This document shows, one piece after another, positions 5,806 to 64,000 of a stretch of DNA of 64,000 bases. Origin of the DNA: Thermoanaerobaculum sp. (lineage in GTDB: Bacteria; Acidobacteriota; Thermoanaerobaculia; Multivoradales; UBA5704); NCBI GenBank assembly GCA_021154885.1, contig JAJKHS010000136.1:62001-126000 (forward strand), read 5' to 3'. The notes below the pieces were generated by a model. That model did no database searches. It was given only the letters and a program-made list of their open reading frames with translations, and was not told the origin of the DNA. A program made the position numbers and the translations under genes. Each line of letters opens with the position of its first letter. The stretch's first letter is position 1.

Positions 5806-6722
5806 GGACCGCCTTTCTGGAGACCCTCTTCGAGCTGGCGAAGGCGGACGAGCGGATCGTCTTCCTCACCGGCGACCTCGGCTTCAGCGTCGTCGAGCCC
5901 TTTGCCCGGCAGCTTCCGAAGCAGTTCGTCAACGCCGGTGTGGCCGAGCAGAACATGACGGCCATCGCCGCCGGCATGGCGCTGTCGGGCAAGATCGCCC
6001 TCACCTATTCGATCGCCAACTTCCCGACTTTGCGCTGCCTGGAGCACATTCGCAACGACGTCTGCTATCACGAGGCGAACGTGAAGATCGTGGCCGTGGG
6101 TGGCGGCTTCGCCTACGGCGCGCTCGGAGCGAGCCATCACGCGACCGAGGAACTGGGGGTCATGCGCATGATGCCGGGGATGACGGTCGTCGCTCCGGCT
6201 GATCCGATCGAAGCGCGGCTCGCCACCCGCGCCATCGTGGCCCACCCCGGCCCCTGCTACATCCGGCTCGGCAAGGCGGGGGAGCCGAACGTCCACGAGG
6301 GACCGATCGATTTTGAGCTCGGCCGCGCCATCCAGGTGCGCGACGGCCGGGACGTCACCCTCCTTTCGACCGGCGGCATGCTCAAGACCGCTGTCGGCGT
6401 GGCCCGCCGCCTGGCCGAGCGCGGCGTCGAAGCCCGGGTGCTCAGCCTGCATACCCTGAAACCCCTGGACACGGAAGCCGTGCTCGCCGCGGCGCGGGAG
6501 ACGGGCGCGGTCGTCACCCTGGAGCAGCACAGCATCATCGGAGGGCTCGGCAGCGCCGTGGCTGAGGTCCTCGCCGAGTCGGGCCTGCCCGTGAAATTCA
6601 AGCGGATCGGCCTGCCCTCGGCCTTCTCGCCAAGGGTGGGGAGCCAGCAGTATCTGGAGGAGCAGAACGGGCTGACGGAGGAGCCGGTGCTGCGGGCGGT
6701 GGAGGGGCTGCTGGGAAGGTAG
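5802..6722 (+). CDS. Transketolase, C-terminal subunit
   Basis: This is the pyrimidine-binding plus C-terminal part of the split transketolase, 306 residues, starting at the GTG inside the GTGA overlap (VRTAFLETLFELAKADERI). Visible features are FLTGDLGFSV, FVNAGVAEQNMTAIAAGMAL with the conserved Glu of the AEQ motif that activates the cofactor, GGGFAYGALGASHHATE, and the C-terminal VVTLEQHSIIGGLGSAVAE. Together with the preceding gene it makes one transketolase. The partner arrangement is the same as in other bacterial split enzymes, where 1-deoxyxylulose-5-phosphate synthase-like sequences are the nearest relatives. Confident on family, less so on the exact sugar substrates. Confidence 0.92.
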   Translation: MRTAFLETLFELAKADERIVFLTGDLGFSVVEPFARQLPKQFVNAGVAEQNMTAIAAGMALSGKIALTYSIANFPTLRCLEHIRNDVCYHEANVKIVAVGGGFAYGALGASHHATEELGVMRMMPGMTVVAPADPIEARLATRAIVAHPGPCYIRLGKAGEPNVHEGPIDFELGRAIQVRDGRDVTLLSTGGMLKTAVGVARRLAERGVEARVLSLHTLKPLDTEAVLAAARETGAVVTLEQHSIIGGLGSAVAEVLAESGLPVKFKRIGLPSAFSPRVGSQQYLEEQNGLTEEPVLRAVEGLLGR

Positions 6723-6731
6723 TTTCGAGAG

Positions 6732-6768
6732 AAAAAAGGGGGACGGGCTCTGTCCGTAGCCCGTCCCC
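6732..6768 (-). terminator. Rho-independent terminator, minus strand
   Basis: The arms at 6739-6749 and 6758-6768 (GGGGACGGGCT with AGCCCGTCCCC) are perfectly complementary around an 8-base loop. On the minus strand the stem is followed by CC and six T, the form of an intrinsic terminator. On the plus strand it has no T tract, so it is not a good terminator for the transketolase operon, although the stem may still stabilise that mRNA's 3' end. Confidence 0.6.
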
Positions 6769-6870
6769 TGAAGGAGGCGCCGCCGCTGAGGCGGTCGTCG
6801 TGACACCCTTCTCCAGCGCAAAGGCGATGCCCGCCTTCGTCCGTTTCGGTCCTGATCGCTAACTCTTTTC
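6732..6870 (-). ncRNA. Candidate structured small RNA on the minus strand
   Basis: The gap 6723-6971 has no convincing gene. Read on the minus strand it shows stable elements in series: a 6-bp stem AAGGCG/CGCCTT (6821-6826 with 6832-6837), a CCGC/GCGG hairpin (6783-6794), then a perfect 11-bp terminator stem followed by six U. No minus-strand protein gene ends here: the next minus gene starts at 11031 and stops at 8491, beyond the activator gene. A terminator with no gene in front of it suggests a short untranslated transcript of about 100-140 nt. The 5' end is a guess; an AT-rich stretch at about 6863-6890 could hold its promoter. I cannot match it to a named RNA family. Confidence 0.35.
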
Positions 6871-6971
6871 TTTTTAGTTATTTGTGGGTTCCCACGGGCC
6901 TTGGCACGGTTGCGAAAGGGGTGTACTATCTGGGGTGGCAATGCCATACCTCGGGTGAGGAAACCATAGAC

Positions 6972-8501
6972 ATGCTCGAACGCCTCCTGGAGCTGGGTAA
7001 GAGGGTGCTCGCCGAGAGCGACCTGGACCGCGTGCTCACGGCGGCGCTCGACGGCGTCATCGAGCTGTGCGGCGCCGAGCGAGGGATGATCCTGCTCTTC
7101 GACCCGCAAGAGCCGGAGGGCGAGGTGGTGGTGGAGACCGCCCGCAACCTCGCCCGGGAGGACATCGAGCGCCCGGAGTTCGAGGTCAGTCGCGGCATCC
7201 TGCGCAAGGTGCGCTCCTCGGGCGAGCCCTTCTGGCATCCCAACGTACTGGACGATCCAGCCCTGGGGAACCGGGCGAGCGTGCTGCGGCTGCTGATCCT
7301 GTCGGTGATCTGCCATCCCATCCGGGACGGCGGTCAGATCCTGGGCGTGGTCTACCTGGACAACCGCAGCGTCGAGGGGGTGTTCTCGGAGGAGACGGCC
7401 GGGCTGGTGGCGAGCTTCTCGGAATTCATCTCGCTGGCGGCCCGCAACGCTCTCGAGCGGCGGCGGTTGCAGCAGCACATCGGCGCCCTAGCGGAGGAGC
7501 TGCGCGGGCGCTACGACTTCGGGGCCATCGTCGGGCAGGACCCGGCGCTGCTGGCGGTGCTCAAGCTGATCTCCCAGGTGGCGGACTCGGACGCCACCAT
7601 CCTCATCCACGGCGAGAGCGGCACGGGCAAGGAACTGGTGGCCCGCGCTCTCCATTTCAACAGCCGGCGGCGGGCCAAGTCCTTCGTCCCCGTCAACTGC
7701 GGCGCCCTGCCCGAGAACCTCCTGGAGTCGGAGCTCTTCGGCCACGTGCGCGGTGCCTTCACCGGCGCGGTGGCGGACAACCCCGGCTGGTTCGAGCGCG
7801 CCGAGGGCGGCACGCTCCTCCTCGACGAGGTGGGAGAGCTGACGCCGCCCCTGCAGGTCAAGCTCCTGCGGGTTCTGGAGAATGGCGAGTACTCGCGGGT
7901 GGGTAGCACGCAGATCCGGCGCGCCGACGTGCGGGTCGTGTCGGCTACCAACCGCGACCTCGCCGACCTGGTGCGGGAGGGAAAGGTGCGGCGCGACTTC
8001 CTCTACCGGCTGAACGTGGTCGAGGTGCGGCTGCCGGCCGTGCGCGAGCGGCGGTCGGACCTGCCGCTGCTGCTGCGCCACTTCCTGGCGAAGCTGGCCG
8101 GCCGTCCGGGCGGCGGCGGCGGAAAGTCCAAGCGCCTGTCGTCGGAGGCCGAGGCTCTGCTCCTCGCCTATGACTATCCCGGCAACATTCGCGAGATGCA
8201 GAACCTGCTGCAGCGGGCCGTGCTGCTGGCCGAGGGGCCGCTCATCGAGCCGCGCCACCTGCCGGAGACCCTGCGCGAGCTGCGCCCGTTGCTACCGTTG
8301 GAGTCGGAGCCCGAGGCCTCCGGCTTCCGCGAGGCCAAGCAGCGGGTGGTGGAGCGCTTCGAGCGGGACTACGTCGCCCGCTGCCTGCGCGAGGCCCAGG
8401 GCAATATCAGCCAGGCGGCTAAGGCAGCGGGCATCGACTACAAGAACTTCTACACCAAAATGCAGCAGTACGGCATCGAGGCCGGGGCGTTCAAGGCTTA
8501 G
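6972..8501 (+). CDS. Sigma-54-dependent transcriptional activator with GAF sensor domain
   Basis: The protein has 509 residues. The N-terminal GAF-type sensor spans about residues 10-165. The AAA+ sigma-54 interaction domain begins near 185, with Walker A GESGTGKE at about 214-221, the sigma-54-contacting GAFTGA at 261-266, and Walker B in GGTLLLDEVGEL. The C-terminal Fis-type helix-turn-helix is ARCLREAQGNISQAAKAAGI followed by DYKNFYTKMQQYGI. There is no receiver domain, so activity is set by the GAF ligand or a partner, not by phosphorylation. The ATG at 6972 follows GAGGAAACC; an upstream in-frame GTG at 6882 would add 30 unlikely residues. Its targets are unknown. The gene overlaps the convergent S9 peptidase by 11 bases. 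Confidence 0.93.
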   Translation: MLERLLELGKRVLAESDLDRVLTAALDGVIELCGAERGMILLFDPQEPEGEVVVETARNLAREDIERPEFEVSRGILRKVRSSGEPFWHPNVLDDPALGNRASVLRLLILSVICHPIRDGGQILGVVYLDNRSVEGVFSEETAGLVASFSEFISLAARNALERRRLQQHIGALAEELRGRYDFGAIVGQDPALLAVLKLISQVADSDATILIHGESGTGKELVARALHFNSRRRAKSFVPVNCGALPENLLESELFGHVRGAFTGAVADNPGWFERAEGGTLLLDEVGELTPPLQVKLLRVLENGEYSRVGSTQIRRADVRVVSATNRDLADLVREGKVRRDFLYRLNVVEVRLPAVRERRSDLPLLLRHFLAKLAGRPGGGGGKSKRLSSEAEALLLAYDYPGNIREMQNLLQRAVLLAEGPLIEPRHLPETLRELRPLLPLESEPEASGFREAKQRVVERFERDYVARCLREAQGNISQAAKAAGIDYKNFYTKMQQYGIEAGAFKA

Positions 8502-11031
8502 CCCCCGGTTTACCGGCCGCCGCGTCCTTCGTCTCCCCCGGCCGGTTCTTCACATACGTGTCCAGCCAGCTCGAGCTCTCCCACAGCAGATGGAGGGCCG
8601 ATTCGCGGGCCCGGTAGCCGTGGCTTTCGAAGGGGAGCACCACCAGGCGGACCGTGGCGCCGTTCCCCTTGAGGGCGTTGTAGAAGCGGTCGCTCTGGAT
8701 GGGGTCGGTCCCCGGGTTGTTGTCGGCCTGGCCGTGGACGAGGAGCAGGGGGCGATGGACCTTGTCCGCGTAGAGGAAGGGGGACATCTTCATGTAGATG
8801 TCCGAGGCGTGCCAGAAGTCGCGCTCCTCCGACTGGAAACCGAACGGCGTCAGCGTGCGGTTGTAGGCGCCGCTCTCGGCGATGCCGGCGGCGAAGAGGT
8901 CGGAGTGGGCGAGCAGGTTGGCGGTGGTGAAGGCGCCATAGGAGTGGCCGCCGATGGCGATCCGCCGCGGATCGGCCACGCCGCGCTTCACCACCTCGTC
9001 CACCGCCGCCTTGGCCGAGGCCACGAGCTGGTCCACGTAGGTGTCGTTGGGCTCCTTGTCGCCCTCGCCGACGATGGGCAGGCTGGGATTGTCCAGCACG
9101 GCGTACCCTTGAGTGAGCCACACCAGGGGCGACGACCAGGAGGCGCGGGCGAAGCGGTACGGCGAGCTGGTCACCTGGCCGGCGGCGCTGGCGCTCTTGA
9201 ACTCCTGGGGATAGGCCCACATCACCAGCGGCAGCGGCCCGTCCGCGGGCTTCCAGCCGGCCGGCGTGTAGAGCGTGCCGGTGAGCTGGACGCCGTCCGT
9301 CCGGGCATAGCGCAGCAGCTCCTTGTGGATGCCCAGGAGCTGCGGCGTGGGGTGGGGGAAATGGGTGAGCTGGCGCAGCTTGCCGGTCTTCAGGTCGCGG
9401 ACGAACCAGTTGGGCGGCTCCTCGACCGCCTCACGGCGCACCAGGACGTAGCGCCCCGCGGCGTCCAGGAGCTGCGTCGGATCCTCGAACCAGGGCGCCT
9501 CCGAGCGGAACAGGCGCCGCGGCTTCTTCGTTGCCAGATCGAGCGCGTCGAGGAACGGACGGTCCCCCTCGGTCGAGGCGCCGAGGCCGGCGAGGAAGAT
9601 CGTCCGGCCGCCTTCCGCGGTCTGGATCACCACGCGGCCCCAGGCGTTGGCGACCGTCAGCGGCTCGCCGGGATCGGAGTAGCGGTCCTCGAAGGAGCGG
9701 TCGAAGAGGAGCTCCGGTTTTGACTTTTCGCCGGCGCCGGGGCGGACGATCCAGGTGCGGGTGCGGCGCGTCTTCCACCACCTCTCGGACACCAGGGCGA
9801 GGCCGTCGTCACCCCAATTGACGCCCTCGAAACGGAACCCGAGGGTCACCAGCGGCGTGGGATCGCCCTGGAACGGGGCGGCGAGCGTGAGCACCCGGTC
9901 GCGCTCTTTGGCCTCGCGGCCGGCGTCGCCGCCGTCCAGGGCCTCCACCCAGGCGAGGGTGGCCGGGGCGTCTTCGCGCCACGAGAGGTCCCGCGGTCCG
10001 GTGCCGACGCTGCCGAAGGTGATGGGGATCTCCTCCTGGAGAGGCAGGTCGGCGACGGTGCGGACGACGTGCCCCTCCAGGTCCCACACCTCGCTGCGAT
10101 GGGGGAAACGGTTGGCGGGCACCAGGTAGGAGAACGGCTTGTGAAGCGTCTCCACCAGCAGATTGCGGCCGTCAGGCGACGGCGAGACGCTCGCCACCAG
10201 CCCCGGCCGGCCGAGGGGGGTGACCTGGCCGTCGGGCGCGATGCGGGCCACCTGCGAGGTCAGGTAGTACTCGAACAGGGCCTCGTCATAGGCGCTCTTG
10301 AGGAGGTCCTGATAGGTCCGCGCCGGCGCCATCTTGCCGCGGTTCTCCTGCAGGACGGGGCCCGCCGGCACCGCCGGGGCTGCGGGCTCGGGGCCCTGGT
10401 CCGCCACCAGGAGGGTGGCCACCAGGGAGCCCTCGCGCAGCCATTGCGGCGACGTGCCGGCGGACAGGTTGAGACGCAATGTCTGCGCGCTGCCCAGCCG
10501 GTGCGCCTGGCCCGTCGCCACCTCGGCGACCCAGAGCTCGATGCCTTCGGCACCGGTGTTGGTGAAGGCGAAGCGGGCGCCGTCCGGCGAGAAATGAACG
10601 TTCTCGATCCGCGCGCCGTCCGGCAGGCCCACGATTTTGCGCTCCGCGAGGTCCGAGAGACGCAGCAGGCGCAGCCCCGTGGCAAAGCCCGCGCGGCTCG
10701 GTCCGTGGCTGCGCGGCCGGATGCGCAGCCCGCCCAGGCGCAGCTCCCGCTCCGCCAGCTCGGCGATGGGCGGCAGGCTGGGCAGGTCGAGCAGCAGCAT
10801 CCACTCCCGCCGGGGATCGAGGCGCACGCCGGGAGTCGGCGGCGCGTCCACCAGGGCCACCAGGGCCGGCGCCGGCGTGCGGTAGAGGCTGGCGGTGCTG
10901 TCCGCAGTGTTCGCGGACGTGGGCGTCGTGGGCGCGGTGGCGGCGTGAACGGCGAGGGTGGGGGCCAGGGCGAGCAGCAGGAGCAACGCGAGTAGCCCGG
11001 CGCAGGACTTGGCGAATCGTGGGGAAGGCAT
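8491..11031 (-). CDS. Secreted S9-family (prolyl oligopeptidase-like) serine peptidase
   Basis: The protein has about 846 residues with a signal peptide (a basic start, then LLALLLLLALAPTLAVHA), so it is exported. The middle is a beta-propeller-like region with sequences such as VHFSPDGARFAFTNTG. The C-terminal alpha/beta-hydrolase domain carries nucleophile Ser about 697 in IAIGGHSYGAFTTA, the acid in LLVHGQADNNPGTD, and His in FESHGYRARES. The layout and these motifs match the glutamyl endopeptidase / acylaminoacyl peptidase branch of family S9. Two ATGs are 6 bases apart. The ribosome-binding AGGAGG is immediately before the first and 6 bases before the second, so I place the start at 11031, not 11037. 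Role inferred: periplasmic or extracellular peptide degradation. Confidence 0.9.
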   Translation of the reverse strand: MPSPRFAKSCAGLLALLLLLALAPTLAVHAATAPTTPTSANTADSTASLYRTPAPALVALVDAPPTPGVRLDPRREWMLLLDLPSLPPIAELAERELRLGGLRIRPRSHGPSRAGFATGLRLLRLSDLAERKIVGLPDGARIENVHFSPDGARFAFTNTGAEGIELWVAEVATGQAHRLGSAQTLRLNLSAGTSPQWLREGSLVATLLVADQGPEPAAPAVPAGPVLQENRGKMAPARTYQDLLKSAYDEALFEYYLTSQVARIAPDGQVTPLGRPGLVASVSPSPDGRNLLVETLHKPFSYLVPANRFPHRSEVWDLEGHVVRTVADLPLQEEIPITFGSVGTGPRDLSWREDAPATLAWVEALDGGDAGREAKERDRVLTLAAPFQGDPTPLVTLGFRFEGVNWGDDGLALVSERWWKTRRTRTWIVRPGAGEKSKPELLFDRSFEDRYSDPGEPLTVANAWGRVVIQTAEGGRTIFLAGLGASTEGDRPFLDALDLATKKPRRLFRSEAPWFEDPTQLLDAAGRYVLVRREAVEEPPNWFVRDLKTGKLRQLTHFPHPTPQLLGIHKELLRYARTDGVQLTGTLYTPAGWKPADGPLPLVMWAYPQEFKSASAAGQVTSSPYRFARASWSSPLVWLTQGYAVLDNPSLPIVGEGDKEPNDTYVDQLVASAKAAVDEVVKRGVADPRRIAIGGHSYGAFTTANLLAHSDLFAAGIAESGAYNRTLTPFGFQSEERDFWHASDIYMKMSPFLYADKVHRPLLLVHGQADNNPGTDPIQSDRFYNALKGNGATVRLVVLPFESHGYRARESALHLLWESSSWLDTYVKNRPGETKDAAAGKPGAKP

Positions 11032-52013: not shown

Positions 52014-54218
52014 TCACTCCTCCGCCATCGCCCGCCGGAGCTGCACGGTCAGCGCGTGGTCCTCTCCCAATGAGGTTTCCGCCATGGCCAGGGCCTGCTC
52101 GAGGTGGTCGCGGGCGGCGTCCAGGTCTCCCAGGTCGCGCTCGACGAGGGCCAGGTTGTTGAGGTCGGCCACCACTTGCGGATGGGCTTCGCCGTAGGCC
52201 TGCTGGTCGATCTGGAGGGCGGCTTCCAGGTGCAGACGGGCGCCCTCGGACTCTCCCAGGGCGCGCAGGAGGCTGGCCACGTCGGTCAGGGCCTCGGCCG
52301 TGCTGGGATGAACGTCGCCGTACATCTGCCGCAGGATGTCCACGATGGGACGGGCGAACTGCAGGGCCTGCTGCGGATCGCCCAGGTCGCGGGCGATCAC
52401 CGCCAGGTTGCGCAGGTCGTTGGCCACGGCGGGATGGACGTCGCCGAAGGCTTGGCGGTGGAGCTCCAGGGCCTGGAGCAGGTGCTCGCGGGCAGCCTCC
52501 CGCTGGCTCAGGTCGTAGAGCGTCAGGCCGAGGCTGGCCAGAAGGGTGGCGAGAGGTGCGATCCGCTGCGGATCGTCGGCGGGCGCGGCGGCGTCTCCCG
52601 GCTCCGGCGTGCCCGCTTCGCGGCCCCGCAGCTCCAGGGCGCGCTCCAGGTGCAGGCGGGCCTCCTCGGGTTGCCTCGCCTCCCGCAGCAGGACGCCCAG
52701 CAGGCTCATGGCGTCGATCGTCGTGGGGCCCTCGGGTCCGTGCACCTCGCGGGCCGCCTCCAGGCCGGTCCGGGCCTCCTCCAGGGCTTCGGGGCGGCGC
52801 CCCGTCTCGCGCAGCAGGCTGGCCCGCAGGAGGTGATAACCCACCCTGCCGGCCGGCGTGAGGGCGTCCGGCCGGCGCCGCACCGCTTCGACGAAGGCCA
52901 GGCGGACGTGGGGAGGCCAGCGACCCTCGGTCTCCTGGGCGGTGCCCAGCAGGTTCTCGGGCGTGAGGAGGCCCCCCTCATCCGGGTCCAGGGCGCGGGC
53001 GAGATCGGCCGCCATCTCGTCCACCTCTTCCTCGCCGATCCAGACCCGCAGGTCGCGGACGTTGGAGGTCCGGCGGCCGGCGTCTTCCAGGTGCTCGGCC
53101 AGGGCGAGGCGGAGCAGGGCCATGCCCCGCGTGTGGAGGGGCATCGACTGGTCGACGAACTCCAACAGCTCCAGGGCCAGCCGCCGGCGCTTGTCCGCGG
53201 TCAACGGCTCCAGGAGGGCCTGGTTGAGGAGGGGGGAGAGGAAGCTGTAGGTCAGCAGACCGGGGAACGAGGGATGGCCGTACTGGTGGTCGACGAACAG
53301 GCGCTGCTCCTCGTTCTCCACCAACTCCTCGTCGATCGTGTCCAGGATCTCCTCCTGCTGCTCCTCGTCGAGCTCCAAGTGGTGGAAGAGCAGCTCGGCC
53401 GGCACGCTGTCGCCGCACAGGGCGGCGAGGTCGAGGAAGCGCTGGAGGCGGTCGGCCGTCTCCAGGTCGAGGTCGTCCAGCAGGTCCTTGACGGGAGCGA
53501 GGAGGTCGCCGGCCGGCAGGGGCGTGAGGTCGAGGCGCAGGCGCTCACTCCGTGGCGCGACGCGCTCGTCCGCTTCGCGCGGCGAGCAGGAGACGGCGAG
53601 CAGGAGGTTGGGATTGGCTCGCGCCTCGTCGAGCAGCCGCAGGCGCAGGGGATCGGTGAGCTGGGGGCTCGCCACGGCGTGGAGCACGAAACGGCCATCC
53701 CGCGCCAGGAGGCGGAGCAGGGCGGTCAGCGACTCCCGCGGGTCGGGGCGGTCGGGGAAGATCTCCCGGGCGGCGGCGCGCGGATCGGGGACGCGCAGCA
53801 GGAGGGCAACCACGGCCGCACCCGACAGCGAGGGCGCGATGCCGGGCAGCATCGGCGAGAGGGCGCGCCCGAGCTCTTCGCGGCCGGCTTCGTTCAGCTC
53901 CCAGCGCCTGGCGATCTGGATCTCGGCGAAGCGCAGGAGGTCCAGCCCCTCCTCGTAGCCCTGGAGGTCGAGGGGGAGGACGAGGACCTCCCGGCCGTCG
54001 CGACTCACGGCGTCCGGACCGTCCGGGCCATGGGCCGCGGCCTCCAGCAGGCCAGTGCGGCCGCAGCCGGGCTCGCCGGCGAGGATGAGCACCGGCGACG
54101 GGCCGGGAACGGCGAGGACGCCCTCGATCGCGGCCAGGGCCTGCGGGGAGTGCTCGGTGTAGAGTCTGTGCTTCTCTGCGGGAGACTGCGAGAGCATCTC
54201 GTCGAGTCCTGGCGCCAT
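52014..54218 (-). CDS. STAND-like P-loop ATPase with C-terminal TPR array
   Basis: The protein has 734 residues. The P-loop near the N terminus reads LILAGEPGCGRTGLLEA (48-55). The invariant Walker A Lys is replaced by Arg54, so ATP binding may be altered. A Walker B-like strand is DGRFVLHAVASPQLTD or VLVLPLDLQGYEE; neither is canonical. Residues 270-420 are helical with an acidic patch (HHLELDEEQQEEILDTIDEE). From about 465 come TPR repeats of about 42 residues, such as HLLQALELHRQAFGDVHPAV and ALQIDQQAYGEAHPQVVADL, in the kinesin-light-chain/NPHP3 style. The arrangement (NTPase then TPR) is that of STAND signalling ATPases. The gene lies between palindromic copies B and C. Confidence 0.8.
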   Translation of the reverse strand: MAPGLDEMLSQSPAEKHRLYTEHSPQALAAIEGVLAVPGPSPVLILAGEPGCGRTGLLEAAAHGPDGPDAVSRDGREVLVLPLDLQGYEEGLDLLRFAEIQIARRWELNEAGREELGRALSPMLPGIAPSLSGAAVVALLLRVPDPRAAAREIFPDRPDPRESLTALLRLLARDGRFVLHAVASPQLTDPLRLRLLDEARANPNLLLAVSCSPREADERVAPRSERLRLDLTPLPAGDLLAPVKDLLDDLDLETADRLQRFLDLAALCGDSVPAELLFHHLELDEEQQEEILDTIDEELVENEEQRLFVDHQYGHPSFPGLLTYSFLSPLLNQALLEPLTADKRRRLALELLEFVDQSMPLHTRGMALLRLALAEHLEDAGRRTSNVRDLRVWIGEEEVDEMAADLARALDPDEGGLLTPENLLGTAQETEGRWPPHVRLAFVEAVRRRPDALTPAGRVGYHLLRASLLRETGRRPEALEEARTGLEAAREVHGPEGPTTIDAMSLLGVLLREARQPEEARLHLERALELRGREAGTPEPGDAAAPADDPQRIAPLATLLASLGLTLYDLSQREAAREHLLQALELHRQAFGDVHPAVANDLRNLAVIARDLGDPQQALQFARPIVDILRQMYGDVHPSTAEALTDVASLLRALGESEGARLHLEAALQIDQQAYGEAHPQVVADLNNLALVERDLGDLDAARDHLEQALAMAETSLGEDHALTVQLRRAMAEE

Positions 54219-57793: not shown

Positions 57794-58549
57794 ATGCTCG
57801 ACGCCTTCGCCCGCCAGATGCTCTACCCGGCGCCGCCGGTCGCCGTTCCCTCCCCGCCCCCTGCCCCTCTGGAGGAGATCGCCCTCGACCTCGCCACCGG
57901 CGACCGCGCCGTGGGGTGGGCGTGGGAGGACCCCGGCCTGCCGCCGGCGGCGCCGCTGGTCCTCTTCTTCCACGGCAATGGCGAGAACCTGGAGACGCTG
58001 CGATGGTCCGGCTTCTACGATGAGCTGCGGCGCATGGGGGTGCCCTTCCTCGCCATGGACTTCCCGGGCTATGGCCGCAGCACCGGCACCGCCTCGGAAG
58101 AGGGATTGATGGCCACGGGTGACGCGGCCGTGGCCTGGGCCCGGGAGCTGCACGCGGGCCGGCCCGTCGTGGCGTGCGGATGGTCGCTGGGCGCCGCGGT
58201 GGCCATCGGCGCGGCAGCCCGCCATCCCGAGACGGTGAAGGGGCTGATCGCCCTGTCGCCCTGGACGACGCTGGCCGAGGTGGCGGTGGGGATCTTCCCC
58301 GAATTCGCCGTCAAGGCGATGCTGCGGGAGCGCTACGATTCGCGGGCGGCGGCCCGGGAGGTCCGGGTGCCCGCGCTGGTGGTCCATGGCGAGCTCGACG
58401 ACCTGATTCCCGTGGCACAGGGGAGGGAGATCGCCGCCGTGCTGGGAGGCCCCGCGCGCTGGGTGCCCGTGCCGCGCACCGGCCACAACGACCTGCTGGG
58501 TTGCCCGGTGGTCTGGCAGGAGATCGGGGCGTTCCTGGCGGCGCTCTAA
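57794..58549 (+). CDS. Alpha/beta hydrolase
   Basis: The protein has 251 residues. It shows the serine-hydrolase fold: oxyanion segment LVLFFHGNGENLE, AMDFPGYGRSTGTASEE, nucleophile elbow VACGWSLGAAVAIGAA (GxSxG), acid in VVHGELDDLIP, and His in RTGHNDLLG. It is closest in style to the Bem46/YfhR-type hydrolases. Without a signal peptide (the start MLDAFARQMLYPAPP may be a membrane-surface anchor) the location is uncertain. It lies 14 bases after the membrane gene. Substrate unknown; carboxylester or acyl compounds are likely. Confidence 0.92.
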   Translation: MLDAFARQMLYPAPPVAVPSPPPAPLEEIALDLATGDRAVGWAWEDPGLPPAAPLVLFFHGNGENLETLRWSGFYDELRRMGVPFLAMDFPGYGRSTGTASEEGLMATGDAAVAWARELHAGRPVVACGWSLGAAVAIGAAARHPETVKGLIALSPWTTLAEVAVGIFPEFAVKAMLRERYDSRAAAREVRVPALVVHGELDDLIPVAQGREIAAVLGGPARWVPVPRTGHNDLLGCPVVWQEIGAFLAAL

Positions 58550-58618: not shown

Positions 58619-60148
58619 ATGGCGAACGGCGTGTCCCGGCAGGTCTACATCATTTCCGACCTTCATCTCGGGGGCGTCTATCCCGAGAGCGGCGATCCGG
58701 AGGACCGTGGCTTCCGCATCTGCACCCAGGGCGAGCGGATTGCGGAGCTCGTGGAGGCGGTGGCGGCCAAGCCGGCCGGCGGGCCGCGGATCGAGCTGGT
58801 GATCAACGGCGATGCCGTGGACTTCCTGGCGGAGCGCGAGGAGGCGCCGCCGTACTGGTCGGCGTTCACCGCCGATCCGGCGGCCGCCGCCAGGAAGCTG
58901 GAGGCCATCGTCGCCCGCGACCGCCGGTTGTTCGACGCCCTCGGCCGCCTGCTGGAGAACGGCCACCGGCTCACGATTCTGCTGGGCAACCACGACATCG
59001 AGCTGGCGCTGCCGCAGGTGCGGCGCCGGCTCAAGGAGCTGATCGGCGTCGAGGGGCGGCACGACTACGAATTCATCCACGACGGCGAGGCCTACGCGGT
59101 GGGGGACGTGCTGATCGAGCACGGCAACCGCTATGACAGCTTCAACGTCGTATCGCAGGACGCGCTGCGCCGCATCCGCTCGCTGGCGTCGCGCCATCAG
59201 CCGGTGCCGGCACAGTACGCGTTCGATCCGCCGGCTGGCAGCAAGATGGTGGCGACGGTGATCAACCCGATCAAGGACGCTTATCGCTTCGTCGACCTGC
59301 TGAAGCCGGAGACGGGTGCGGTGGTGCCCATGCTGCTCGTCCTGGAGCCGGGCTACCGCAGCATCCTGAGCCGGGTGGCGGCCCTGGCGCTGGCGGCCGG
59401 CAAGCACCGGCTCGCCGCGCCGGCCCTGCCGTCCTTCGGGGGCGACATCAGCTCCGAGATGAGCGGGCTGGACGGGTTCGGAGACGACATGAGCGGCGCC
59501 TCCTTCGGCTCGGACATCAGCTCGGGCGGTGCAGCGGGGAACGATCCGCTCGATCGCATCCTCGCGGAGGCCCTGGGCGAATCGCCGGGGGCCTTCCTGG
59601 CCGCCCTGGAGCCGGAGCCCGCGTCCTATGCCGCGGCGGCCATCGGCGAGGACATCTCCAGCTTCTCGGCGGTGGATTCGACCCTGGGGCTGATGCAGCT
59701 CCTGCTGGGCCGGGGGAGCGTGGGCGTCGAGCGGCGCCTGCCGGCGCTGCTCAAGGCCCTGCGGGCGGTGCAGAGCGACCAGAGCTTCGATCGCGGCGTC
59801 GAGACCGCCCGCGAGTATCTCGACGCGGCCCGGGATCTCAGCAAGGGCGGTTTCCGCTGCGTCGTCTTCGGCCATACGCATCTGGCGAAGAAGATCGATC
59901 TCGGCGGCGGGGCCTGGTACCTGAACTCCGGCACCTGGGCGGACCTCATCCAGTTCCCCGTCGAGCTGCTCGCCGGCCCCGAGCCGGAGGCGCTGGCGCG
60001 GGTGCGGGAATTCGTCGACGACATGCAGCAGGGGCGGCTCAAGCGCTGGACCCGTTTCAAGCCGACCTACGTGCGCATCGACCTCGACGGCGACGACCGC
60101 ATGACCGCCGCCGAGCTGTGCGACTACGCCGGCCCCGAGGGGGTCTGA
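58619..60148 (+). CDS. Calcineurin-like metallophosphoesterase with C-terminal EF-hand-like motif
   Basis: The protein has 509 residues. The dimetal phosphoesterase motifs are in order: IISDLHLGG, LVINGDAVDFLA, LLGNHDIELAL, VLIEHGNRYDSFN, and CVVFGHTHLAKKID. A 130-residue insert, rich in Gly/Ser/Ala (GGDISSEMSG...GSDISSGGAAG), separates the fourth and fifth motifs. The C terminus contains DLDGDDRMTAAE, which has the 1, 3, 5 and 12 acid spacing of an EF-hand calcium loop. It ends 12 bases before the trypsin-STAND-WD40 gene and is probably cotranscribed with it. Substrates could be nucleotides, cyclic nucleotides or phosphoproteins. Such pairing with a STAND protease is unusual. Confidence 0.9.
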   Translation: MANGVSRQVYIISDLHLGGVYPESGDPEDRGFRICTQGERIAELVEAVAAKPAGGPRIELVINGDAVDFLAEREEAPPYWSAFTADPAAAARKLEAIVARDRRLFDALGRLLENGHRLTILLGNHDIELALPQVRRRLKELIGVEGRHDYEFIHDGEAYAVGDVLIEHGNRYDSFNVVSQDALRRIRSLASRHQPVPAQYAFDPPAGSKMVATVINPIKDAYRFVDLLKPETGAVVPMLLVLEPGYRSILSRVAALALAAGKHRLAAPALPSFGGDISSEMSGLDGFGDDMSGASFGSDISSGGAAGNDPLDRILAEALGESPGAFLAALEPEPASYAAAAIGEDISSFSAVDSTLGLMQLLLGRGSVGVERRLPALLKALRAVQSDQSFDRGVETAREYLDAARDLSKGGFRCVVFGHTHLAKKIDLGGGAWYLNSGTWADLIQFPVELLAGPEPEALARVREFVDDMQQGRLKRWTRFKPTYVRIDLDGDDRMTAAELCDYAGPEGV

Positions 60149-60160
60149 GCCCGCGCTCCC

Positions 60161-63100
60161 ATGGAAGAAGCCGTCCGCCGGGCGATCGCCCGCATCGACA
60201 TCATCGACGGCGCGCAGGTGCTGAGCCGGGGCACCGGTTTCCTGGTCGGCCCCGGGCTCGTGCTCACGGCTCTCCACGTGGTGGCGAACCGCCATCAGGA
60301 CCCGCCGCAGTTCCTCCCCGGCCGCATCGTCCTCACCTTTCCCGGCGGCAGCCGCGAGGCGCGGCTCCATCCCAGCTTCTGGGACCGCCGCGCCGACTGG
60401 GCCCTGCTGACCTGCGACGAGCTGGAGGGCGTCCGCCCGCTGCCCATGGCGGACCTCCAGAGCTCGGGGGGCTCCTGGGAGACCTACGGCTTCCCGGACG
60501 CCAACCCCCGCGACGGCATGGTGCAGCGGGGGACCGTCGAGAACCACCTCGGCGACCTCGAAGGCGTGCCCGCCTTCCAACTCTTCAGCCGCCAGGCCGC
60601 CGCCGGCCACGGCGCGCCGGTGAAGGGGCTCTCGGGCGGCCCCGTGCTGGTCGACGGCGCCCTCGTCGGCCTGCTGCGGTTCGCCCTGATGAAGGACGGC
60701 CAGGCGGTCGCTGGCACCCTGTACGCCTGCCCCATCGCCGCGCCGCTGGCCCGCACCGGCGACCTCTTCCCGGTGCCCGACCCGTGCCACGGCCTGCCCG
60801 GGCTCAAGCGCCGCCCGCTGCCGGCCAAGCCCTTCCGCTACCTCGACCGCTTCACCGCCAGCGACGCCGAGATCTTCTTCGGCCGCAACCGCGAGATCCG
60901 CGAGCTCTACCTGCGGCTCACCGACGCCGGCAGCTCGCCCATCGTGCTGCTCTACGGCCAGTCGGGGGTGGGGAAGTCCTCGTTCCTCGACGCCGGTCTC
61001 CTGCCGCGGCTGGAGTGGTACCACGAGGTGCGCTACGTGCGGCGCGACTCCCACCGCAGCCTCGCGGCGACGCTCCTCGCGGCGGTACAGCCGGCGGAGG
61101 TCGCCGAGGGAGCCGAGGGAACCTCGCTGGCCGCGGCCTGGCGGCTGGCGGAGAGCCAGACGGGCCGGCCCCTGGTCGTGATCCTCGACCAGGTGGAGGA
61201 GGTCTACACCCGGCCCGCGGCCGAATACCCGGGAGAGCTGGACGAGCTTTTCGGCGTGCTCGTGGAGCTCTTCGGCGATCCCGCTCGCCGGCCGCAGGGG
61301 CGCCTCGTCCTCGGCTTCCGCAAGGAGTGGTTCCCGGAGATCCAGAAGCAGCTCGAGATCCACGGGCTGGATTACGGCAAGGTGTTCCTGGAGGGGCTCG
61401 ACCGCGCGGCCATCCTGGAGGTGGCGACCGGGCTCACCCTCACGCCGCGCCTGCGGGAGCGCTACGGCCTGGAGGTGGAGCCGGGGCTCGCCGAAATCAT
61501 CGCCGGCGACCTGCTGGCGGACCGCGACTCGCCGATCGCTCCCACGCTCCAGATCCTGCTCACCCGCATGTGGCAGGAGGCGACCGCCGAGAGCCAGTCC
61601 GCTCCCCGCTTCACCTACATCCTCTATGGGCGGTTGCGGGACGAGGGCTATCTGCTGGGGGATTTCCTCGACCAGCAGCTCCAGAAGCTCGGCCGGAGCG
61701 CGATCTCGCCAGAGGACTCCGAGCGGCTGGGGGATTTCCTCGACCGCCAGCTCGAGAAGCTGGGCAGTGCCCATGGACTGGAGGGGTGGTCCGAGCGCAC
61801 CGCCGAGGAGCGCGCCGAGGTGGTCGAGTCGGGGCTGGTGCTCGACCTCCTGGCCCACCACACGACGCCGCTGCTCACCGCCGAGCAGCGGACGGAGAGC
61901 GAGCTGCGGGAGCGCTACGGCCACCGCGCCGGCATCCTCTCCGACCTCGTCCAGGCGCTGAAGGGACTGTTCCTGTTGACCGATCCCGCGGGGGACGGCG
62001 CGCAGGCCGCCGGGGGAACGCGCCTCGGCCACGACACCCTGGCGCCGCTGGTGCGGCAGCGCTACGACCTCTCGGTGTGGCCGGGTCAGCGCGCCCACCG
62101 TATCCTGGCGAGCCGCGGCAGCGAGTGGAAGGGCGGCCGCACGGCGGCGCCCCTCGACGCCTGGGACCTGAAGGTGGTGGAGGCGGGGCTCCCCGGGATG
62201 CGGGCGCTGCAGCCGGACGAGGAGCGCCTGCTCGCGGCCAGCCGCAAGCAGCGCGGCCGGCACCGGCGCAACCTCTGGCTGCTGCGGGCCGCGGGCCTCG
62301 CCGTGCTGGCGGGCCTCGGCGTGGTCCTCTGGCTGGCGCGGCGGGTGGAGGAGCGCCACCGTCTCTTCGCCACTCCGCAGGAGGTGCAGCGGCTCCTGGC
62401 GGTGGAGCCGGTGGCGGGTCTCACCGAGGCCATCGCCGCGGCGGGCGACAGCCTGGACCATTTCGGCCAGGTCTTCACGCCTGTCCAGCTCAGCCTCCTG
62501 CGGGCGGTGGAGGAGGCGCGGGAACGCAACCGCTTCAACCACGGCGCGGCCGTCTCCTGCGTGGCGGCCAGCCCGGACGGCCGGATGGTCGCCAGCGCTG
62601 GCGAGGACGGCGCCATCCGCCTGTGGGGCCTGAACGGGGAGGCGCCTCGCGTCCTGCCCAAGGCCGGCACCGTGCCCCGCGCCATCGCCTTCAGCCGCGA
62701 CGGTCTCCTGGCGAGCGTGGGCGACGACGGGCGGCTGCGCCTGTGGTCCGCCGTGGACGGCACGCTGCGGGCCACCTCGCAGGAACAGCACACCGGCATT
62801 ACCTGGACCGTGGCCTTCAGCCCGGACGGCAAGCTCGCCGCCACCGGCGGCGACGATCGCCTGGTCCGCCTGTGGGACCTGCAGGGCAGGCTTGTGGCGG
62901 CGCCATTCGAGGGGCATGACGGCGCCGTCCACGAGCTGGCCTTCAGCCCGGACGGCAGCACCATCGCGAGCGCCAGCCAGGACGGCTCGGTCCGCCTCTG
63001 GGACCTGCAAGGCAGGCCCGTGGCCGAGCCGTACCGGGGGCACAGCGGCCCGGTGTATGCCGTGACCTTCAGCCCCGACGGCAAGAGCCTCGCCTCCGGC

Positions 63101-64000
63101 GGCGAGGACGGCTCGCTCCGCCAATGGACGCCGGACGGCAAGAACGCCTATCCCCCCCTGCGGCGCCATGAGGGCGCCGTCAATGCCGTGGTCTTCCTCG
63201 ATGGCAACACTCTCGTCAGCGCCTCCGAAGACCAGACGGTGCTGTTCCAGGACCGCGACGGCCACCGTCTCTTCGCCCCTTTCGCCGGCTTTCATGGCAA
63301 CGTCTCCACGATGACCGCCGTCCCCGGCCGGCGCGAGCTGGTGGCCGGCAGCGACGACAAGTCGGTGCGCATCCTCGACCTCGAGCACAGTCAGCTCGGG
63401 CCGCCCCTGGTGAAAGAGCCGGGCAGCGGCAGCATCCGCCTCCTGGCCTTCGCCTCCGGCGACCGCCTCCTCGCCCTGGGCAGCGCGCTGTGGATGTTCG
63501 ACACGAAGAGGAGCGATCACCCGAAGCTGCTGACCCTCGCGGACGTTCCCCCCGACTCTATTTCGGCGCTGGCCCTGAGCCCCGGCGGCAAGCGGCTCGC
63601 TGCCGGTACGAAGGACGGCTCGATCCAGCTCTGGGACGACAACGGCCGGCGGCTGGGCCCTCCCTTCGCCGAGGGCGACCAGAAGATCCTGGCCCTCCGC
63701 TTCTCCCAGGACGGGGGCAGGCTCCTGAGCGGCGACGAGAACGCCAACGTCGTCGTCCGGGAGGTCGACGGCAAGGTCCTGCACAAATTCAGCGGCAACC
63801 GCAAGCTCTCCGCCGTCGCCTTCCGTGCTGACAGCGAGCACGTCGCCGCCGGCACCGACGACGGCACCGTCCTCCTTTGGAACGCCGAGGGAAAGGCTCT
63901 GCGCAATCCCTTGCGACCCTCTTCAGTGCGCATCGTGTCGCTGGCCTGGAATCCGGCCGCCCCGTACCTCGCGAGCGGCGACGACGACGGCTATCTCACG
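60161..64000 (+). CDS. Trypsin-like protease / STAND ATPase / TM / WD40 protein, 3' end outside window
   Basis: The frame is open from ATG 60161 to the window end (1280 codons, no stop), so the C terminus is missing. Residues 1-200 are a trypsin-like protease with His39 (LTALHVV), Asp79 (RADWALL) and Ser158 (KGLSGGPVLV). Residues about 235-690 are a STAND-type ATPase: Walker A GQSGVGKS at 266-273, Walker B VVILDQVEEV with Asp343, then a winged-helix-like region. A membrane helix (about 704-728, LWLLRAAGLAVLAGLGVVLW) separates it from at least twelve WD40 blades (AFSPDGSTIASASQDGSVRL and others). WD40 repeats would sense a ligand, and STAND oligomerisation would trigger the protease. The metallophosphoesterase gene lies 12 bases upstream. 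Confidence 0.92.
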   Translation, partial: MEEAVRRAIARIDIIDGAQVLSRGTGFLVGPGLVLTALHVVANRHQDPPQFLPGRIVLTFPGGSREARLHPSFWDRRADWALLTCDELEGVRPLPMADLQSSGGSWETYGFPDANPRDGMVQRGTVENHLGDLEGVPAFQLFSRQAAAGHGAPVKGLSGGPVLVDGALVGLLRFALMKDGQAVAGTLYACPIAAPLARTGDLFPVPDPCHGLPGLKRRPLPAKPFRYLDRFTASDAEIFFGRNREIRELYLRLTDAGSSPIVLLYGQSGVGKSSFLDAGLLPRLEWYHEVRYVRRDSHRSLAATLLAAVQPAEVAEGAEGTSLAAAWRLAESQTGRPLVVILDQVEEVYTRPAAEYPGELDELFGVLVELFGDPARRPQGRLVLGFRKEWFPEIQKQLEIHGLDYGKVFLEGLDRAAILEVATGLTLTPRLRERYGLEVEPGLAEIIAGDLLADRDSPIAPTLQILLTRMWQEATAESQSAPRFTYILYGRLRDEGYLLGDFLDQQLQKLGRSAISPEDSERLGDFLDRQLEKLGSAHGLEGWSERTAEERAEVVESGLVLDLLAHHTTPLLTAEQRTESELRERYGHRAGILSDLVQALKGLFLLTDPAGDGAQAAGGTRLGHDTLAPLVRQRYDLSVWPGQRAHRILASRGSEWKGGRTAAPLDAWDLKVVEAGLPGMRALQPDEERLLAASRKQRGRHRRNLWLLRAAGLAVLAGLGVVLWLARRVEERHRLFATPQEVQRLLAVEPVAGLTEAIAAAGDSLDHFGQVFTPVQLSLLRAVEEARERNRFNHGAAVSCVAASPDGRMVASAGEDGAIRLWGLNGEAPRVLPKAGTVPRAIAFSRDGLLASVGDDGRLRLWSAVDGTLRATSQEQHTGITWTVAFSPDGKLAATGGDDRLVRLWDLQGRLVAAPFEGHDGAVHELAFSPDGSTIASASQDGSVRLWDLQGRPVAEPYRGHSGPVYAVTFSPDGKSLASGGEDGSLRQWTPDGKNAYPPLRRHEGAVNAVVFLDGNTLVSASEDQTVLFQDRDGHRLFAPFAGFHGNVSTMTAVPGRRELVAGSDDKSVRILDLEHSQLGPPLVKEPGSGSIRLLAFASGDRLLALGSALWMFDTKRSDHPKLLTLADVPPDSISALALSPGGKRLAAGTKDGSIQLWDDNGRRLGPPFAEGDQKILALRFSQDGGRLLSGDENANVVVREVDGKVLHKFSGNRKLSAVAFRADSEHVAAGTDDGTVLLWNAEGKALRNPLRPSSVRIVSLAWNPAAPYLASGDDDGYLT

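Follow-up and report, generated by a model that had tools for sequence, protein, structure and literature searches.

A phosphoesterase gene paired with a sensor-fused trypsin in Thermoanaerobaculum sp.: a candidate protease-gated immune-type system

Does the gene pair at the 3' end of a 64,000 nucleotide (nt) stretch of a Thermoanaerobaculum sp. contig (JAJKHS010000136.1, positions 62,001 to 126,000 of the forward strand; hereafter the window) encode a defence system, and if so, which of its two enzymes acts on the other? The upstream gene encodes a calcineurin-like metallophosphoesterase (MPE) and is followed, after a gap of 12 nt, by a single open reading frame (ORF) joining a trypsin-like protease, an nSTAND1 NTPase, a likely transmembrane (TM) helix and WD40 repeats. 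A previous sequence-only reading had proposed an antiphage system in which a membrane-tethered protease is triggered by WD40 sensing and tuned by the phosphoesterase or by calcium. The positions of both genes and the gap given in that reading were confirmed by the ORFs, and the missing 3' end of the second gene was recovered from the contig (L009:8397). We consider it probable that the pair forms a two-gene immune-type system, in which a sensor-driven trypsin cuts and thereby activates a gated MPE.

Linkage of one phosphoesterase family to two protease classes

A scan of named genomes with a four-sequence alignment yielded 79 MPE loci, with neighbour classes assigned using profile models built for this analysis. 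At 100 bits or above, 62 loci were found, of which 57 could be evaluated (L028, L039, L059, L068 and L077 carry too little sequence after the MPE). The gene directly downstream encodes a trypsin in 25/57, a CHAT (caspase-like) protease in 25/57 and neither in 7/57. Below 100 bits, none of the 13 evaluable loci (of 17) has a trypsin or CHAT neighbour; this family border was chosen after seeing the list, and L084 (100.0 bits, CHAT) lies exactly on it. Across all 79 loci there are 27 trypsin and 28 CHAT ORFs, nearly all of which are these MPE neighbours. In 25/25 cases the distance between the MPE stop codon and the start of the trypsin domain is -14 to +68 nt. None of the 27 listed trypsins with a direct or near linkage has lost a residue of the catalytic triad, and the CHAT His and Cys are present in 25/25. 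The MPE-protease linkage is far beyond chance, and the absence of linkage in other genomes that the sequence-only reading had named as fatal to its proposal was not seen.

Within the phylum of the window, MPE relatives occur in 6/297 genomes. The two best matches besides the window's own are G051, where the MPE is followed by trypsin-AAA_35 (4 nt overlap) and then AAA_35-WD40, and G008, where it is followed by CHAT-TPR-S and then a TPR-S protein; L021 and L022 are weak matches. In the reverse direction, the trypsin domain matched 3/297 genomes, with an adjoining MPE in two; in the third (G129), the match is weak and falls in a secreted-looking protease encoded next to a recombinase. The trypsin domain of the window pair is single copy in its genome. 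The trypsin group extends over Pseudomonadota, Myxococcota, Acidobacteriota, Gemmatimonadota and Verrucomicrobiota, and the CHAT group additionally occurs in Thermodesulfobacteriota, Planctomycetota and Actinomycetota. A Methylobacterium plasmid record contains an annotated metallophosphoesterase and a CHAT-domain protein 5 nt apart; plasmids searched for the trypsin domain and phages searched for the MPE gave no match.

The model alignment comprised the window MPE and 55 others (fragments, L018, L019, L078 and L084 excluded). In an MPE tree calculated without the insertion described below, the 26 CHAT-paired rows fall on one side of a branch with a support of 100 (quick method), so that trypsin and CHAT partners are divided by a single change. 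Distances among the MPEs track those among the trypsins (r = 0.83, n = 27, 0/5000 permutations as high). Within the trypsin branch, the trypsin is constant while its fusion partner varies: nSTAND1-WD40 (window, L027, L030, L031, L034), NB-ARC-WD40 (L051), nSTAND1 (L038, L046), NACHT-HEAT-TPR (L047), EAD1 (L023, L024, with L033 just below the cut-off), TIR-TPR-S (L040, L041, L042, L045), TPR-S (L035, L054), Lamassu-type CTD2 (L044, L052), AAA_35 (L018) and TPR (L050). Weak AAA/STAND matches were found for L025 and L053, L048 has a stand-alone trypsin and, two genes further, an NB-ARC-TPR gene, and L026 and L049 have no clear partner domain. The L052 operon is Lamassu by PADLOC (LmuA 3.7e-33, LmuC 7.9e-31, LmuB 3.6e-111), with the MPE located upstream of trypsin-LmuA.

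The window partner itself bears out the fusion of protease, STAND ATPase and WD40 repeats in one protein, as identified by Pfam, PADLOC and NCBIfam. Its first 180 residues match the protease of Avs1b (2e-10, 5e-10), LmuA (1.7e-9), RT-protease and HamA models (PADLOC, NCBIfam), while Pfam identifies nSTAND1 (1.3e-30; 107.7 bits against a curated cut-off of 27.1) and WD40 (4.7e-92, 299 bits). The catalytic residues described previously are indeed intact: the protease triad, a Walker A motif (GQSGVGKS, Lys272) and an acidic Walker B-like stretch. At least twelve WD40 blades had been claimed, and the completed protein contains 13 repeats when counted with a model built for this analysis.

Metal site, insertion motifs and the order of action

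The MPE has a Pfam Metallophos match (6.4e-6), and the metal ligands D14, H16, D65, N124, H125, H168, H419 and H421 are all present. They are kept in 28 trypsin-group and 26 CHAT-group MPE rows, with one H16 as the single exception. The AlphaFold model has a mean predicted local distance difference test score (pLDDT) of 86.2, and its nearest solved fold is LpxH (UDP-2,3-diacylglucosamine diphosphatase; Z ~17 over 207 residues, 3.4 Å, ~19% identity across the aligned part), followed by PolD DP1 (13.8) and Mre11/SbcD (~12). LpxH is also the top Foldseek match (E 2.9e-3), and a PDB sequence search with the MPE gave no match. These nearest folds make phosphodiester or pyrophosphate hydrolysis the likely chemistry. 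Unlike LpxH, the MPE is linked to proteases, and it is twice as long.

An insertion is located between the LLKPE and GHTH segments of the MPE. The ten close trypsin-paired MPEs, including that of the window, each contain at least two D-[IV]-x-[AS] motifs, mostly of the form G-x-D-I-[S/R/K/G/H/A]-[A/S]. Within the insertion of these ten proteins 27 such motifs were seen compared with 2.1 expected by shuffling (0/1000), whereas outside the insertion the count was 6 compared with 5.4 expected; the fragment L028 has two further copies. CHAT-paired MPEs show no such excess (3 seen, 3.5 expected). These instead contain an [FL]L[SG][AE] motif, present 18 times in 15/26 proteins compared with 1.3 expected. 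Common descent accounts less readily for repeats inside a single protein and for the difference between the two protease groups.

The three motifs of the window MPE (276-279, 299-302 and 345-348) all lie inside low-pLDDT stretches, and an ordered helical piece (310-337) is found between the two linkers. In the CHAT-paired MPE L073, a low-pLDDT stretch starts at residue 263, within FLSA 261-264. The predicted disorder and the motif positions are consistent with two cuts releasing a flap. In Hachiman, a published system, the partner trypsin cuts an MBL-fold (metallo-β-lactamase) pro-nuclease after Ile in two disordered insertions (Tuck et al. 2025, PMC12799240). The parallel and the test were fixed before the insertions of the 79 loci were viewed, with the DISS repeats of the window and the four-sequence alignment already known.

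We infer the following sequence of events. The WD40/nSTAND1 part would sense a trigger, upon which the STAND part would oligomerise on ATP, as STAND proteins do, and gather the N-terminal trypsin domains into an active state. The trypsin would then cut the separately encoded MPE after isoleucine at the G-x-D-I-S/A sites of both disordered linkers, so that the helical flap separating them is lost or loosened and the metal site becomes accessible. Once released, the LpxH-like MPE might hydrolyse a phosphodiester or pyrophosphate target (a nucleic acid, a nucleotide or a nucleotide-linked precursor), leading to growth stop or cell death and so protecting kin. The same MPE family is joined to many other sensor modules, with a sister branch using the CHAT protease. 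The suggestion of the sequence-only reading that the phosphoesterase tunes the protease would thus be reversed, as the motifs and predicted disorder better fit a protease that cuts and activates the MPE.

Known systems, counter-evidence and alternatives

The closest counterparts are the nuclease-protease pairs of AVAST type 1, Hachiman (HamMAB), Lamassu and DRT (PMC12799240), where a metal hydrolase gene likewise lies directly upstream of a trypsin fused N-terminally to changing defence proteins. The trypsin domains are related, and disordered insertions with Ile-containing sites are found in both, in our family clearly in the ten close MPEs and more weakly in 18 remoter ones. The hydrolase differs: the effector there is an MBL-fold nuclease, here an enzyme of the unrelated calcineurin/LpxH-like fold. 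AVAST uses the same cutting mechanism as Hachiman, and related nucleases pair with caspases in canu (PMC12799240). Canu thus resembles our CHAT branch in having a caspase-like protease instead of trypsin, although its MBL-fold nuclease is encoded downstream of an Ig-bearing caspase, whereas the MPE lies upstream of the CHAT protein (CHAT-TPR-S in L019). By analogy, the pair probably shares its mode of action with the AVAST, Hachiman and canu nuclease-protease pairs.

The window partner also has the composition of nSTAND1 counter-invader systems (Kaur et al. 2021, PMC8195603), with nSTAND1 above its curated cut-off, an N-terminal effector or peptidase and C-terminal repeats. The N-terminal domains listed as possibilities for nSTAND1 proteins include calcineurin and trypsin (PMC8195603); both are known as effectors that replace one another in nSTAND1 and other conflict systems (PMC8195603, PMC7159879), and nSTAND1 proteins with trypsin partners have been described (PMC10907252). 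In the systems of PMC8195603, however, effectors are described as being joined to the STAND protein, and a conserved MPE gene beside the protease gene together with cut-site motifs was not seen in the available portion of PMC8195603. Unlike L052, where an MPE gene precedes a Lamassu operon (trypsin-LmuA, LmuC, LmuB), the window pair has nSTAND1-WD40 in place of the Lamassu parts LmuA/LmuB and is not a Lamassu system.

On balance we favour the view that calcineurin/LpxH-like MPEs represent a second class of bacterial immune effectors switched on by proteolysis, one that arose independently. In the form of effector-protease pairs they would have moved among STAND, TIR, Lamassu and other sensors, one branch being adapted to trypsin (cutting after Ile) and its sister to CHAT (cutting after Leu). 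Such a class would correspond to the other enzyme class that Tuck et al. thought might exist (PMC12799240), a paper whose main text does not mention phosphoesterase, calcineurin, phosphatase or CHAT. No paper on MPE-protease pairs was found in the open-access library searched, for the most part by its listings; subscription papers, preprints and supplements lay outside this search, and the pairs may be known elsewhere. If correct, bacterial immunity evolved the gating of a toxic enzyme by a partner protease on more than one occasion, using hydrolases of unrelated fold and two protease classes that are likewise unrelated, and thereby providing a caspase-like activation cascade with new effector chemistry. 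A protease switching on the MPE by flap cutting suggests a likeness to eukaryotic immune and cell-death proteases. The cut-site motifs would make the idea directly testable by point mutants, and the MPE family would serve as a marker for sensor proteins in poorly annotated loci.

Several observations weigh against protease gating in an immune system. Presence in defence islands, which the sequence-only reading had proposed as a check, found no support: a neighbourhood test of trypsin-paired and control loci, sampling 118/157 and 105/105 neighbour genes respectively, revealed no enrichment. Among the first 25 of 55 and 50 families, the commonest PADLOC families were kinase-like in both sets (2 vs 3 members), and AbiEi and AbiEii genes occurred once each among the families listed. 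The case for a defence role comes from the domains found in the partners and from a single Lamassu operon. The 18 remoter trypsin-paired MPEs have no D[IV].[AS] excess (2 seen, 2.3 expected) and share only a looser [IVL][SARGKH][AS] pattern (51 seen, 30 expected), which is mildly raised in CHAT-paired MPEs too (47 compared with 36.6 expected, 30/1000). The motif was worded after the sequences had been seen, and the ten sequences are mutually related. Seven evaluable family members have neither protease adjoining (L029, L032, L036, L037, L043, L082, L083), with L036 encoding a trypsin-NACHT-FGE protein two genes downstream of the MPE, and in G259 (L020, 133 bits) the MPE lies beside a GAF-histidine kinase with no protease. 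Finally, the fold does not tell the substrate: LpxH is closest to the model, yet the PolD and Mre11/SbcD nucleases match too.

Four alternatives can be weighed against this evidence. In the first, the MPE acts as a regulator: by degrading a nucleotide or a phosphorylated signal it holds the protease inactive or resets it, and the effector is the trypsin, which kills through cleavage of cellular proteins. In some conflict systems, calcineurin-type domains are interpreted as enzymes that cleave cyclic nucleotides (PMC7159879), and the TIR-TPR-S carried by four trypsin partners could make a nucleotide signal. We nevertheless regard this as rather unlikely: most trypsin partners lack a nucleotide-signal domain, the protease-type-specific insertion motifs are left unexplained, and in the closest studied systems it is the hydrolase that serves as effector (PMC12799240).

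A role in signalling or in development (programmed death) among bacteria whose life cycles are complex, as opposed to antiphage defence, would account for the many Myxococcota carriers, the patchy occurrence within the window's phylum and the missing defence-island enrichment. It fits poorly with partner domains typical of conflict systems (TIR, NACHT, EAD1, TPR-S, Lamassu) and with the plasmid-borne MPE-CHAT pair, and appears unlikely.

It is quite improbable that the D-I-S/A repeats are instead docking or assembly sites, for the protease or for each other, within a stable complex that switches the MPE by binding alone. An arrangement of two to four copies per protein, placed within disordered linkers, would also suit binding motifs, but in no pair checked has the partner protease lost its catalytic residues, and the motif class shifts with the protease class.

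Lastly, a diverged AVAST type 1 system is highly improbable: metallo-hydrolase, trypsin and STAND do occur together and the trypsin matches the Avs1b protease region (36.7 bits), but the pair is not a member because an LpxH-like MPE replaces the MBL-fold Avs1a and the Avs1b model is reached only over the protease part (aa 2-178; 37.1 bits compared with a cut-off of 1500), and the STAND is fused to the protease. The more limited resemblance to AVAST type 1 originally noted, with a protease-STAND fusion, a different hydrolase family and a WD40 C-terminus, is supported.

Coordinates and further observations

Table 1 Features of the MPE-trypsin pair in window coordinates (aa, amino acids).
Feature	Position	Strand	Basis
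MPE, calcineurin-like metallophosphoesterase, LpxH-like fold, 509 aa; predicted gated pro-enzyme (ATG to stop)	58619..60148	+	sequence (ORF), Pfam, model
First disordered linker of MPE insertion, aa 274-305; pLDDT <50 at 274-295 and 297-305	59438..59533	+	AlphaFold model
Candidate cleavage site 1, GG-DISS, Ile277	59444..59455	+	motif
Candidate cleavage site 2, GS-DISS, Ile300	59513..59524	+	motif
Second disordered linker of MPE insertion, aa 341-356; pLDDT <50	59639..59686	+	AlphaFold model
Candidate cleavage site 3, GE-DISS, Ile346	59651..59662	+	motif
EF-hand-like loop of the sequence-only reading, aa 488-499; predicted beta-hairpin, unconserved	60080..60115	+	AlphaFold model, relatives
Trypsin-nSTAND1-TM-WD40 protein (from ATG), 1411 aa overall, to 64396 beyond the window	60161..64000	+	ORF, contig, Pfam
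Trypsin-like protease domain, aa 1-205, triad His39/Asp79/Ser158	60161..60775	+	related to protease part of Avs1b, LmuA, HamA models
nSTAND1 NTPase domain, aa 224-476; Walker A 60956-60979	60830..61588	+	Pfam
Hydrophobic stretch, likely TM helix, ~aa 705-725	62273..62335	+	hydropathy only
WD40 repeats, putative sensor; 13 repeats, aa 794-1368, last ones past the window	62540..64000	+	purpose-built model

The proposed membrane tethering holds in part. A single strong hydrophobic stretch behind the STAND domain is kept in the nSTAND1-type partners L027, L030, L031, L034 and L046; it is missing from many other trypsin partners, and the membrane is therefore not essential to the pair. The EF-hand-like tail and the calcium control attached to it found no support. 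A 12-residue loop fits by eye, but relatives lack it, and the model shows a beta-hairpin (strands 483-489 and 495-502) rather than helix-loop-helix. An alpha/beta hydrolase gene upstream of the MPE (57794-58549, 69 nt off) was considered as a third component and rejected, as it is not the constant upstream gene among the relatives listed, which were compared by one gene each and by length and strand only. L018 has a lipase upstream of its MPE, and its likeness to the window's hydrolase may be a coincidence.

Directly behind the system, a gene for an MNT-type nucleotidyltransferase is present (64571-64984; L009:8572-8985), with no evident HEPN partner. Two overlapping small ORFs at L009:17999-18584 resemble by eye a ParD/ParE-type toxin-antitoxin pair. 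A large TPR protein is encoded on the minus strand at 52014-54218, the best NCBIfam match of which, the FxSxx-COOH system TPR protein, is below cut-off (108 compared with 300 bits). WD40 repeat proteins are found on at least seven further contigs of the genome (C143, C144, C154, C104, C97, C131, C4); the open frames of these other WD40 proteins reach 1465 aa, and none has the same trypsin domain.

Among related loci, the Bacteroidota-type members L029, L032, L037 and L082 have no protease adjoining. L037 and L082 lie beside POTRA/ShlB-like genes, with L082 also near PD40, hinting at another, envelope-linked role; part of the MPE family may thus do something else. In L020, from the window's phylum, the MPE relative (8860-10209) is 9 nt from the GAF-histidine kinase gene (5989-8850). 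The order at L036:10445-16667 is unusual, with the MPE followed by an ABC ATPase similar to mad3 and then trypsin-NACHT-FGE. L051:10409-14662 encodes trypsin-NB-ARC-WD40 as one protein, an Apaf-1-like order with the protease in front. In a Gemmatimonadota metagenome-assembled genome, the MPE-trypsin pair is followed by a second gene with a Trypsin_2 domain (L026:12248-13789).

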